Assembly (NCBI GenBank): GCA_026416095.1
Contig: JAOAFV010000001.1
Span: 1-58,444, forward strand
Reading direction: 5' to 3'
From: Bacteroidales bacterium
GTDB lineage: Bacteria > Bacteroidota > Bacteroidia > Bacteroidales > GWA2-32-17
Length of the DNA: 58,444 bases
Under the pieces are notes generated by a model that was given only the letters and a program-made list of their open reading frames with translations, was not told where the DNA came from and did not search any database. How positions within the stretch are numbered: the first letter of the stretch is position 1; every line of letters begins with the position of its first letter. Below are positions 25,333 through 47,803 of this stretch, one piece after another. The translations under genes were made by a program, and so were the position numbers.

Positions 25333-26114
25333 TGTTCTTTTATTATAATTTTATTAAATACCTTTTAACTTCTAGACATCGGAAAGGTCACGGTATTCAC
25401 TCTCCATATATATACCACTTAATAAAAAATGTTTTTTTGTATAATCAGAAAAAATACCAATTAAAATTAGTTCCACGACGTTTTAAAGAAATCATCCAAA
25501 AATATTCAACGGTAGAACATTTAGACTTTGGGGCTAAAGGAAAAGGTACAAAATACCTAATTAATGTAAAGAAAAAATACAAATACATCTCGGTTCCAAT
25601 TAAATATGGTAAAATTTTATCTAATCTTATTACATATTTTAATTGCAAAAACATTTTAGAACTTGGTACAGGGCTTGGTATTAGTTCTTCATACATGGCT
25701 TTATTAAACAATAGATCAACTATTACAACTGTCGATGCTTCTACCGAATTCATTAAAATAGCCCAAGAATTATGGAAAAAATTACGAATAAACAATATAA
25801 ATGTAATCAATAAAACATTCAACGAAGCAATAAACGAAATTATCAAAACTAACGATTTTATAGACATGTTATTCATAGATGGCAACCATAAAAAAGATGC
25901 ATTATTAAGTTACTATTATAAACTTAAGCCTAAATTTAATAAAAACACAATAGTTGTTATCGACGATATATATTGGTCGAAAGAGATGCACGAAGCCTGG
26001 AATATTATTAAAAACGATCCCGATGTGTCGCTATCAATCGACATTTTTAGAATGGGGTTAATTTTCTTTACCGACAAAATATTTTTTAAACAACATTATA
26101 AAATAAGATATTAG
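25332..26114 (+). CDS. Class I SAM-dependent methyltransferase
   Basis: A 260-residue protein. An N-terminal stretch (residues 1-30) with RKGHGIHSPYIYHLI resembles a membrane-proximal extension seen in Bacteroidota homologues. The Rossmann fold follows: motif I ILELGTGLGISSSYMA (about 107-122), VDAS (about 134), and the DMLFIDGNHKKDA acidic motif (about 178), all as in O-methyltransferases of the COG4122 type. Substrate unknown. Starts inside the stop of the preceding gene and its own stop overlaps the GTG of the ABC ATPase, so four genes are coupled. Confidence 0.82.
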   Translation: MFFYYNFIKYLLTSRHRKGHGIHSPYIYHLIKNVFLYNQKKYQLKLVPRRFKEIIQKYSTVEHLDFGAKGKGTKYLINVKKKYKYISVPIKYGKILSNLITYFNCKNILELGTGLGISSSYMALLNNRSTITTVDASTEFIKIAQELWKKLRINNINVINKTFNEAINEIIKTNDFIDMLFIDGNHKKDALLSYYYKLKPKFNKNTIVVIDDIYWSKEMHEAWNIIKNDPDVSLSIDIFRMGLIFFTDKIFFKQHYKIRY

Positions 26115-26783
26115 TGAATATTATAAAATTAAACAATATTTACAAGTTCTATAAAACAGGTAAAGTTATTGTTAAAGCAATTAATGGCATTTCTCTTGAA
26201 ATTTCGAATAACGAATTTGTTGCAATAATGGGACCTTTGTATTCAGGAAAAACAACTCTAATGAATATTATTGGCTGCCTCGATGTTCCAACGGCTGGTG
26301 AATATTTCCTTAATCACAAAAAGGTAAGTATATTAAACGATAATCAATTTGCACAAATAAGAAATAAAGAAATTGGATTTGTATTTCAATCGTTTAATTT
26401 AATGCCTCGTTATACTGTTTTAGAAAATGTTACGTTACCACTTGTTTATACTGGTATATCATTAAAAGAAGAAAAATTTAAAGCCATTGAAGTACTTGAA
26501 AAAGTAAACATTGCAAGTAAAGATTTAAACAAGCCTAATAAGCTTTCAGGTGGCGAATTCCAGCGCGTTGCAATTGCTAGATCTCTTGTAAATAACCCTT
26601 CAATAATACTTGCCAACGAACCCCCAAGGAAATTTAAATTCTAAAATTTCGCATGAAATTATGAAACTATTTTTAAAAATTCATACAGCAGGTAACACAA
26701 TTGTACTTGTAACTCATGAAGAAGATATCGCTTCGTTTGCTAAAAGAATTGTAAAACTTAGAGATGAAAAAATAGAAAAATGA
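26114..26783 (+). pseudogene. LolD/MacB-like ABC ATPase, frameshifted at a C5 run
   Basis: The first 173 residues form an ABC ATPase of the LolD/MacB type: Walker A GPLYSGKTT, Q-loop FVFQSFNLMP, signature LSGGEFQRVAIARSL. At 26621-26625 a run of five C breaks the frame and a stop follows at 26642. Removing one C restores ...NEPQGNLNSK... and a frame to the TGA at 26781-26783 with the H-loop LVTHEE, giving about 222 residues, the normal family length. Other degradation is visible: the Walker B aspartate is asparagine (IILANEP) and the D-loop NLD is NLN; the P-loop LY replaces the usual SG. No permease gene is adjacent. Either a sequencing error at the C-run, plus divergence, or a pseudogene. 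Confidence 0.8.
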
Positions 26784-45340: not shown

Positions 45341-47803
45341 ATGAGCTCAAAGTATGCCGATATTATACTACCATTAAAAGTAAACCAGCTATTTACTTAT
45401 GAAATTCCAGAACATTTATCAAATTCAATAAAAATCGGACAAAGAGTAATAGTACCATTAAAAGAAAAAAAACTTTTAACGGGAATCGTCAGAAATATTC
45501 ACAATACAATTCCTGTGTATAGCGTAAAAAAGATTATTAATATTATTGATAATGAAATTATTATAAACGAGCAGCAATTTAGATTATGGGAATGGATATC
45601 GGCTTATTATATGTGTTCAATAGGCGAAGTATATTTAGCATCTTTACCATCGGGTTTAATTTTAGAAAGCGAAACTGTAATAGTGGCCGGAGAAAAATTT
45701 TCTGAGTTTCAACCTAATAGTGATAAAGAAAAAGAAATACTAAATATTATAAGCACAAAAGGATTTATTGACATAAAGGTTTTAAAAAAATTATTGGGTA
45801 AAAGTAATTTTAAAAAAATTATTAACAATTACGTAAAAAATAAAATACTTAACATAGAACCATTTATAAAAAATGAAACAAAAAAATATATAGAGTTCGT
45901 AAATTTTAAAAATCAAAATTTATGTGAAGAAGAATTAGATGCGATATTTAAATCTTTAAAAAAGTCGAAAAAACAAGCTGAATTGATTTACACATTCATT
46001 CATTTAAATAATGGTAAATTCACAAATGTTGTACCAATAAAGAAAAATGTATTATTAGAAAAAGCACATTCTAAAGAATCTCATTTAAAAGCACTTGTTG
46101 ATAAAGGAATATTTGTAATTGAACAAAAAGAAGAATCTGAAGAAATTAGAATGCCACGGTATTTTTCAAAATACTTAATACCTTTGAGTAACAATCAGAA
46201 AAAATTTATTTCGGATATTAAAAAGCTTTTAAATGAAAAAATACCCCTCTTAGTAAGAAATATTTACAACGATGAAGAGAAATTTACTTTGCTTTTGAAC
46301 TTAATTGATGAATATTTAGCTAAAGAAATGCAAATTTTATATTTAGTACCAGAAATACACTATGCCGATAAAATAAAACAAAATTTTGAAAAAATTCTTG
46401 GTAATTATGTAATACCTTATCATAACGATATATCAGAAAATAATCGTTCAAAGTTATATTTAAACTTATGCCGTAATAATTTAAAAGAATGTGTGATAAT
46501 TGGTGCAAGAAGTGCTGTGTTTTTACCATTTAACAAGTTGGGGTTAATAATTATCGACGACGAACATGAGCAATCATATAAAAATCAATCTGTACCGTAT
46601 TTTAATACTAGAGACGTGGCTATTGTCTTATCTAAAATTTACAATGCAGATGTACTACTATTAAGCAATACACCTTTGTTAGAAAGCATATACAATGTTA
46701 AAGTAAATAAGTATAATGAAATTTTTTATAATTGCGACAAGAAAAAAGCTGATAATGTAAAAGTTGAAATTATTGACTTTAAAAAAGAAAAAAATAAAGG
46801 AAATGTAAAGTTAAATTACTACACCGATATTGTTATTAATGAAATAAAAGAAACAATAAAAAGAAATTTACAAGTTGTTATTTTCATAAACAGAAGAGGC
46901 TATTCTCCATACTTGGAATGTGAAGAGTGCATATGGGTTGCAAAATGTAAAAACTGCGATGTGAATCTTGTATATCATAAGAATTCAAGAAACCTTATCT
47001 GTCATTACTGCGAATATTCTATAGACATTCCACATAGTTGCTCTTTATGTGGTAGTGCTAAACTGAAAATAAAGGGTGTAGGGACTCAACGAGTTGAAGA
47101 TGAAATTACATTATTAATAGAAAATGCTAATATAGTAAGAATAGATTACGACGCCCTCAAAGATAAAAAAAAACGTAGCGAAACTACAGAAAAAATAAAA
47201 AGTAACGAAATTCAAATAATAACAGGAACTCAAATGATAAAGAAAATAGTCGACTTTAAAAATGTTGGGCTTATTGTTATACCAGAAATCGATACTTTAC
47301 TCAATTTTGCCGATTTTAGAGCTAATGAAAAAGTTTTTCAAATTTTAGAAACTTTTCGCAATAAACTAACAACTTCCGATACAACTACTAAAATATTAAT
47401 TCAAACTAACAGGCCTAATCATCCTGTTTTAAAATATTTTGAATTAAATAATATTAACAGTTTTTACGAATACTTGCTTAATGAAAGAAAGATATTTTTT
47501 TATCCCCCATTTTCACGCATTATAAAAATAGTAATTTTTCATAAAGACAGGAATAAGGTCTTGCATATAGCAGAACAATTAAAAAACGAACTTTTAGAAA
47601 TTAATTCGTTAGTAATTCTTGGTCCACAATTTCATAGAATAGAAAAAATTAAAAATAATTTTATAATCGAATTATTTCTTAAAATTCCCAAAGGTACTGA
47701 ATCATCCAATATAAGGATTAACATATACGATAAAGTAACTAATTTCTTTATGATACCTGATTATAAAAATGTAAAATATTACGTCGATGTAGATCCGTTG
47801 TAA
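45341..47803 (+). CDS. priA: PriA-like primosomal protein lacking helicase motifs I and VI
   Basis: An 820-residue PriA homologue. The DNA-binding N-terminus (LPLKVNQLFTYEIPEH), the VIIGARSAVFLPF segment, DDEH (motif II, normally DEEH, about 405) and FINRRGYSPYLECEEC are clear, as is the zinc region with four C-x2-C pairs (about 527-570). But the Walker A position, normally GVTGSGKT, reads RNIYNDEE near residue 305, and the QVAGRAGR motif reads ETFRNKLT near 672; GTQMIAKGHDF has become GTQMIKKIVDF. It should therefore not hydrolyse ATP or unwind DNA. In E. coli, Walker A mutants still assemble primosomes, so a loading scaffold role is possible. The frame is intact and codon use like its neighbours. 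Confidence 0.85.
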   Translation: MSSKYADIILPLKVNQLFTYEIPEHLSNSIKIGQRVIVPLKEKKLLTGIVRNIHNTIPVYSVKKIINIIDNEIIINEQQFRLWEWISAYYMCSIGEVYLASLPSGLILESETVIVAGEKFSEFQPNSDKEKEILNIISTKGFIDIKVLKKLLGKSNFKKIINNYVKNKILNIEPFIKNETKKYIEFVNFKNQNLCEEELDAIFKSLKKSKKQAELIYTFIHLNNGKFTNVVPIKKNVLLEKAHSKESHLKALVDKGIFVIEQKEESEEIRMPRYFSKYLIPLSNNQKKFISDIKKLLNEKIPLLVRNIYNDEEKFTLLLNLIDEYLAKEMQILYLVPEIHYADKIKQNFEKILGNYVIPYHNDISENNRSKLYLNLCRNNLKECVIIGARSAVFLPFNKLGLIIIDDEHEQSYKNQSVPYFNTRDVAIVLSKIYNADVLLLSNTPLLESIYNVKVNKYNEIFYNCDKKKADNVKVEIIDFKKEKNKGNVKLNYYTDIVINEIKETIKRNLQVVIFINRRGYSPYLECEECIWVAKCKNCDVNLVYHKNSRNLICHYCEYSIDIPHSCSLCGSAKLKIKGVGTQRVEDEITLLIENANIVRIDYDALKDKKKRSETTEKIKSNEIQIITGTQMIKKIVDFKNVGLIVIPEIDTLLNFADFRANEKVFQILETFRNKLTTSDTTTKILIQTNRPNHPVLKYFELNNINSFYEYLLNERKIFFYPPFSRIIKIVIFHKDRNKVLHIAEQLKNELLEINSLVILGPQFHRIEKIKNNFIIELFLKIPKGTESSNIRINIYDKVTNFFMIPDYKNVKYYVDVDPL

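Follow-up and report, generated by a model that had tools for sequence, protein, structure and literature searches.

According to database annotation, the PriA proteins of Actinobacteria are without helicase motifs. A published survey describes them as smaller and very divergent (PMC1193525). The PriA of Deinococcus radiodurans is reported neither to hydrolyse ATP nor to unwind DNA and to bind both forks (108.5 nM, the range given for other PriAs being 50-135 nM) and DnaB, and recruitment of DnaB during restart has been proposed as the role that it keeps (PMC4504706). According to the same report, the ATPase/helicase activity of PriA is not strictly needed in E. coli (PMC4504706), and the E. 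coli priA300/PriA K230 mutants are described as retaining primosome assembly with ATPase and helicase activity removed (PMC4504706, PMC10175261). Here we describe a gene from a Bacteroidales genome, located in a window of 58,444 nucleotides (the whole stretch of DNA that was analysed), which is a candidate for a PriA pseudohelicase. A literature search, with subscription journals mostly outside its reach, found no report of such a protein in Bacteroidota.

The priA-like gene and its modules

The gene and three of its domains are located as follows.

45341..47803, + strand: priA-like gene, 820 amino acids, PriA pseudohelicase candidate (uninterrupted open reading frame)
45359..45649, + strand: 3' DNA-binding domain (3'BD), residues 7-103, kept (PF17764 and branch ratio)
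46910..47074, + strand: cysteine-rich zinc module, residues 524-578, 8/8 cysteines kept (Pfam and alignment)
47507..47797, + strand: PriA C-terminal domain, residues 723-819, kept (Pfam)

The encoded protein, hereafter the window PriA, passes the TIGR00595 equivalog model (438.7 bits; cut-off 230.35) and scores under the cut-offs of the longer PRK05580 equivalogs. The TIGR00595 match starts at residue 318 and the Pfam DEAD match at residue 322, both past the P-loop. Together with the PriA domains recognised by Pfam, namely the 3'BD (PF17764, 92.3 bits, cut-off 22.7), the zinc ribbon (PF18319, 40.6 bits) and PriA_C (PF18074, 44.2 bits), this bears out the first-pass annotation of a PriA homologue, and the protein also has sequence matches to solved PriA chains. 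The zinc module had likewise been called intact, and it is: the cysteine pairs C527/530, C536/539, C554/557 and C567/570, each C-x2-C, are all retained and align with those of relatives. The source genome (2.46 Mb in 62 contigs, 96.9% complete) gives a single PriA match, and a search of this assembly for another, intact priA detected none at E<=0.001. The species is represented by one draft genome of one strain, which we count against the reading favoured below.

Might the gene simply be on its way out? A decaying or subfunctional priA could be found here if an intact copy lay in the unassembled ~3% of a genome that is 96.9% complete, or if restart were dispensable. We judge this unlikely, because the 820 codons contain zero stops or frameshifts, whereas simulated neutral decay introduced 4.0 stops on average when divergence was 2% and 9.8 when it was 5%; about 2% of the simulated copies were still open at the lower divergence and 0/300 at the higher. 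GC by codon position (0.35, 0.22, 0.20) follows the pattern of a coding gene. All in all, the window priA does not seem to be a gene in decay, and further points on either side of this alternative are taken up with the rates and the neighbourhood.

The fold is predicted to be intact. AlphaFold2, supplied with a 48-sequence alignment, returned both lobes folded at a mean pLDDT of 87.6, and the five top matches among solved structures are PriA chains (Z 29.6-36.6, with 26-29% identity and an rmsd of 4.3 to 7.0 A over 542 to 688 aligned residues), followed by Mfd at Z 19.6.

Loss and retention of helicase motifs

The near alignment comprises 49 relatives at the level of the order or closer, contributed by 49 of the 56 other genomes that gave a match; the seven whose matches are partial or split (G018, G023, G031, G035, G036, G041, G047) were left out, and a PriA match was absent in three genomes of this search. 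Adding 80 named contigs yields a wide alignment of 129 comparison PriAs; at least two of the 80 are duplicates (L051 and L052 of L003 and L004) and were excluded from the lobe-rate control described below. The family-level search covers 10 genomes. The closest relatives found are three same-genus PriAs, at 39-40% amino-acid identity over the full length. A search of genome_contigs and viral_contigs with peptide patterns from the window PriA returned 66 and 7 stretches with zero relatives among them, and the best 80 of 548 relatives from an alignment-based scan of genome_contigs are at most 39% identical to it.

In a phylum survey with TIGR00595, 388 of 395 genomes have a match, which is a profile match only. 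The weakest best E values are 1.5e-36 (G358), 2.2e-113 (G290), 4.8e-132 (the window genome) and 2.1e-143 (G291), and among the survey matches listed, which are the best ones, alignments start at the first or second position of the profile. In ten of the surveyed genomes the match is weak, split or absent, and further motif losses may occur elsewhere in the phylum. In G290 and G291 the match of this survey falls into two pieces, as does in G036 the match from the search behind the near alignment, there with internal stops; each represents a split gene, a frame break or an insertion.

Aligned with these relatives, the helicase motifs of the window PriA read as follows (K314 is placed by alignment register).

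46250..46294, + strand: motif I/P-loop region, destroyed, residues 304-318, LVRNIYNDEEKFTLL
46280-46282, + strand: Walker A lysine K314, retained
46502..46531, + strand: motif Ib, kept, residues 388-397, GARSAVFLPF
46556..46567, + strand: motif II/Walker B, residues 406-409, DDEH for DEEH
46661..46675, + strand: motif III region, residues 441-445, LSNTP for GSATP/GTATP
46883..46900, + strand: motif IV region, kept, residues 515-520, FINRRG
47225..47257, + strand: motif V, residues 629-639, GTQMIKKIVDF
47351..47374, + strand: motif VI, residues 671-678, TFRNKLTT for QVAGRAGR

Motifs I, II and VI of SF2 helicases are usually assigned to nucleotide chemistry, and Ia, Ib, IV and V to DNA contact. 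On alignment, the nucleotide-hydrolysis motifs I and VI are gone and III is partly so, with Ib, IV and most of V kept. The P-loop reads RNIYNDEEKF, its glycines and threonine having disappeared (G307N, S312E, G313E, T315F) and one residue having been inserted upstream. The first-pass annotation had described a degenerate Walker A in which lysine and threonine were both replaced by glutamate; the degeneracy stands, but the threonine has become phenylalanine and the lysine is still there. We take K314 to be this lysine because a gap-free count back from PEI gives the spacing that the GKT lysine has in the same-genus PriAs, the extra residue lying upstream. Motif VI is lost as had been proposed, its columns now carrying Q671T, V672F, G674N, R675K, G677T and R678T. 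The KIVDF noted earlier in motif V is KGLDF altered by G636I and L637V, with GTQM, K, D and F retained. Motif II carries E407D and retains D406, E408 and H409, and the loop after it is one residue short; motif III goes from SAT to SNT by A443N, and motif Ia loses A340, T342, Q344 and R348.

The G, G, K and T of the P-loop and the Q, G, R, G and R of motif VI are kept in 129/129 comparison PriAs, as is the KGxDF glycine that the window PriA lacks, and HGVTxSGKTE, GSATP, KGLDF and QVAGRAGR are all present in the three same-genus proteins. Because every one of the 129, those of the same genus included, keeps these residues, the loss looks restricted to this lineage, as the first-pass annotation had supposed.

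Counted over near-invariant columns (defined from the 49 relatives), the window PriA has lost 41 of 132; in a leave-one-out control on nine relatives, eight lose 1 to 5 columns and the most divergent (G017) loses 24. The helicase lobes account for 36 lost and 57 kept, compared with 5 lost and 34 kept in the rest of the protein (132 columns, Fisher p=0.004). Motif I has lost 8/10 of its columns and motif VI 6/6, so that the motif set of an active helicase is not in place. Motifs I, II and VI together show 15 lost and 5 kept, and Ia, Ib, IV and V 7 lost and 21 kept (Fisher p=0.001), in a test whose motif ranges were chosen after the columns had been seen and which omits motif III (2 lost, 3 kept). 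Against a pseudohelicase we count that motif Ia has lost 4/7 near-invariant columns and kept 3, and also that near-invariant residues of the 3'BD have changed (G41K, Y46L, A101S).

Conceivably, the protein is still an ATPase with unusual motifs, capable of slow or switch-like nucleotide binding, given that K314 stands in register, that D406, E408 and H409 survive, that DDEH is also present in one intact PriA (L046) and that the fold is predicted to be intact. This seems to us quite improbable, however, as both arginines of motif VI are missing along with the glycines and threonine of the P-loop, all of them invariant in 129/129 others, and as the D. radiodurans PriA, in which the GKT lysine is an arginine and motif II is poor, is reported to be without measurable ATPase (PMC4504706). 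From the sequence we infer that the ATPase is lost; residual nucleotide binding is possible in view of K314 and D406/E408/H409. An assembly or sequencing artefact, such as a chimera or a local pair of frameshifts, could also mimic motif loss, and the assembly is indeed a draft with another frame break in the window at 26.6 kb. It is an extremely improbable explanation all the same: the missing motif is encoded in 0/3 forward frames at both the motif I and the motif VI site, the substitutions are scattered across both lobes and several motifs, and the codon-position GC is typical of a coding gene.

Descent, evolutionary rate and genomic setting

A tree of 50 PriAs places the window PriA as sister to those of the three same-genus genomes, at an ultrafast-bootstrap support of 100. 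The same placement is obtained, again with support 100, when residues 271-712 are removed, and it fits vertical inheritance.

Selection was gauged by domain-wise rate tests and the neutral-decay simulation in place of dN/dS; synonymous sites would be saturated, because the nearest relatives are only 39-40% identical in amino-acid sequence. The ratio of the own branch to that of the mates is 4.4 for the whole PriA and 2.8-6.7 for nine other proteins, which implies no more than a distant lineage. Broken down by domain, PriA has a ratio of 3.1 for the 3'BD (below that of 8/9 other proteins), 2.8 for the winged helix, 6.8 and 6.8 for the lobes, 4.2 for the zinc module and 4.3 for the C-terminal domain. 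Comparison of the lobes with the rest (6.3 vs 3.3) gives a quotient of 1.94, matched by 0/200 random column partitions; with the larger alignment it comes to 1.77, whereas 124 intact PriA controls have a median of 0.93 and reach at most 1.36. Judging from these rates, constraint is relaxed in the lobes and not, or much less so, in the rest of the protein. A further claim of the initial reading is upheld, namely that the DNA-binding N-terminus is retained (it matches PF17764, and its rate does not exceed that of other proteins in the genome). Constraint persists outside the degenerate lobes, the N-terminal domains changing at an ordinary rate and the lobes about twice as fast. As for decay of the gene, the acceleration of the lobes is in its favour, but the N-terminal DNA-binding domains keep the pace of other proteins and 8/8 zinc cysteines have been preserved.

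At sites identical in the three relatives, PriA retains 55.6%, the lowest of nine proteins, and we count this against the pseudohelicase reading. The same retention amounts to 69.9-84.9% in UvrB, two RecQ, Mfd, RecG, a UvrD/PcrA-type protein, DnaB and RadA, and these eight values rule out a genome-wide decay of helicases. That PriA is a uniquely fast gene was likewise rejected, since its whole-gene branch ratio is ordinary; the description holds for the lobes and for conserved-site retention. A simple P-loop pattern was found in 6/9 own proteins tested; it missed both RecQ proteins and their relative alike, and an AddA-like protein only here, the relative being matched. A UvrD-family, AddA-like protein (L165, on contig C46 of G000) diverges strongly throughout the genus, being 29-31% identical to its mates, which are 37-48% identical among themselves; the copy here starts at a contig edge and has no NCBIfam match at 1e-80.

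The three same-genus genomes share the gene order ispH, pfkA, then priA. This cluster of the relatives (at L199 6331-10077) is broken in the window genome. A PfkA signature is found in 14/129 priA loci, of which two are repeats and many have short flanks. In the window genome, cmk-ispH lies within a 121-kb contig, where era and der come next and neither pfkA nor priA is present; no close pfkA match was found in this genome, and its one PFK match is 37% identical over part of the length. Because cmk-ispH runs into era/der and the sole PFK is only 37% identical, priA has probably moved, which counts against the pseudohelicase reading, and pfkA has probably been lost from this genome. A priA outside its ispH-pfkA-priA neighbourhood, along with so distant a PFK match, is compatible with a gene in decay, but the position of cmk-ispH inside the 121-kb contig, with era and der next to it, leaves no hidden pfkA-priA adjoining. 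In one relative, priA is followed by a gene (P0003, without an NCBIfam match) that has no match in the window genome. Elsewhere in the window, at 26114-26644 (+), an ABC-transporter ATPase ends just past its Walker B and the domain resumes in another frame; its best NCBIfam model is LolD, under the cut-off, and the frame break is a mutation or an assembly error.

Possible partners are encoded in the genome: DnaB, DciA, SSB with the tail DDLPF, RecG, two RecQ-family proteins, a UvrD/PcrA-family protein and Mfd. DciA is found in 3/4 genomes of the genus, G003 being without a match. The E. coli priA300 allele is reported to suppress recG defects (PMC5055574); loss of RecG as a cause was rejected here, as RecG aligns over its full length and passes its equivalog model.

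Proposed ATP-free fork recognition and its known counterparts

How might such a PriA act at a fork? We think it likely that the window PriA, the only one detected and vertically inherited, has turned into a pseudohelicase which needs no ATP to recognise forks and recruit DnaB; an ATP-independent fork scaffold is the best reading because the loss is lineage-restricted, no second copy was detected and constraint is retained. Abandoned forks and D-loops would be recognised through the 3'BD, the winged helix, the zinc module and the inert helicase lobes, with the SSB tail guiding PriA to the fork. PriA would then recruit DnaB, possibly together with DciA, and would spend no ATP on unwinding the lagging-strand arm. 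Clearing of that arm, if needed, might be performed by RecG, RecQ or the UvrD/PcrA-type helicase, or gaps at the fork might provide single strand. For the more specific proposal, an independent, lineage-restricted ATP-free PriA in Bacteroidota that has lost hydrolysis, largely keeps its DNA-contact surface and serves as a static clamp loading DnaB, perhaps with DciA, we would put the chances at about even.

Compared with intact Bacteroidota PriAs, the window PriA is orthologous, has domains identical in kind and shares 39-40% identity with the same-genus proteins, but is without their HGVTxSGKTE, GSATP, KGLDF and QVAGRAGR. If the ATP-free reading is true, the same-genus relatives with an intact enzyme form a natural before-and-after pair: with ATPase lost here and kept there, the accompanying changes could be compared directly. 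The actinobacterial PriAs, compared by description only, are likewise divergent and belong to another phylum (PMC1193525). E. coli priA300/K230 are one-residue laboratory mutants, whereas the window PriA represents a natural loss across several motifs.

The nearest likeness is to the D. radiodurans PriA, also an orthologue with degenerate nucleotide motifs and conserved DNA-binding modules, as far as the published account describes it (PMC4504706). There, motif I (K to R) and motif II are reported to be changed throughout Deinococcus-Thermus (PMC4504706); here, the change concerns one Bacteroidales lineage in which the lysine stays and the P-loop glycines and threonine are lost together with motif VI. 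The Deinococcus pattern of a lysine turned arginine with a poor Walker B is thus not what is found, K314 being kept and Walker B altered only by E407D. Loss of ATPase was measured for D. radiodurans (PMC4504706) and is deduced from sequence for the window PriA. PriA pseudohelicases as such are already known; what is new is a narrower and apparently independent loss, involving other motifs and standing beside intact same-genus relatives, which suggests that the Deinococcus case is not unique.
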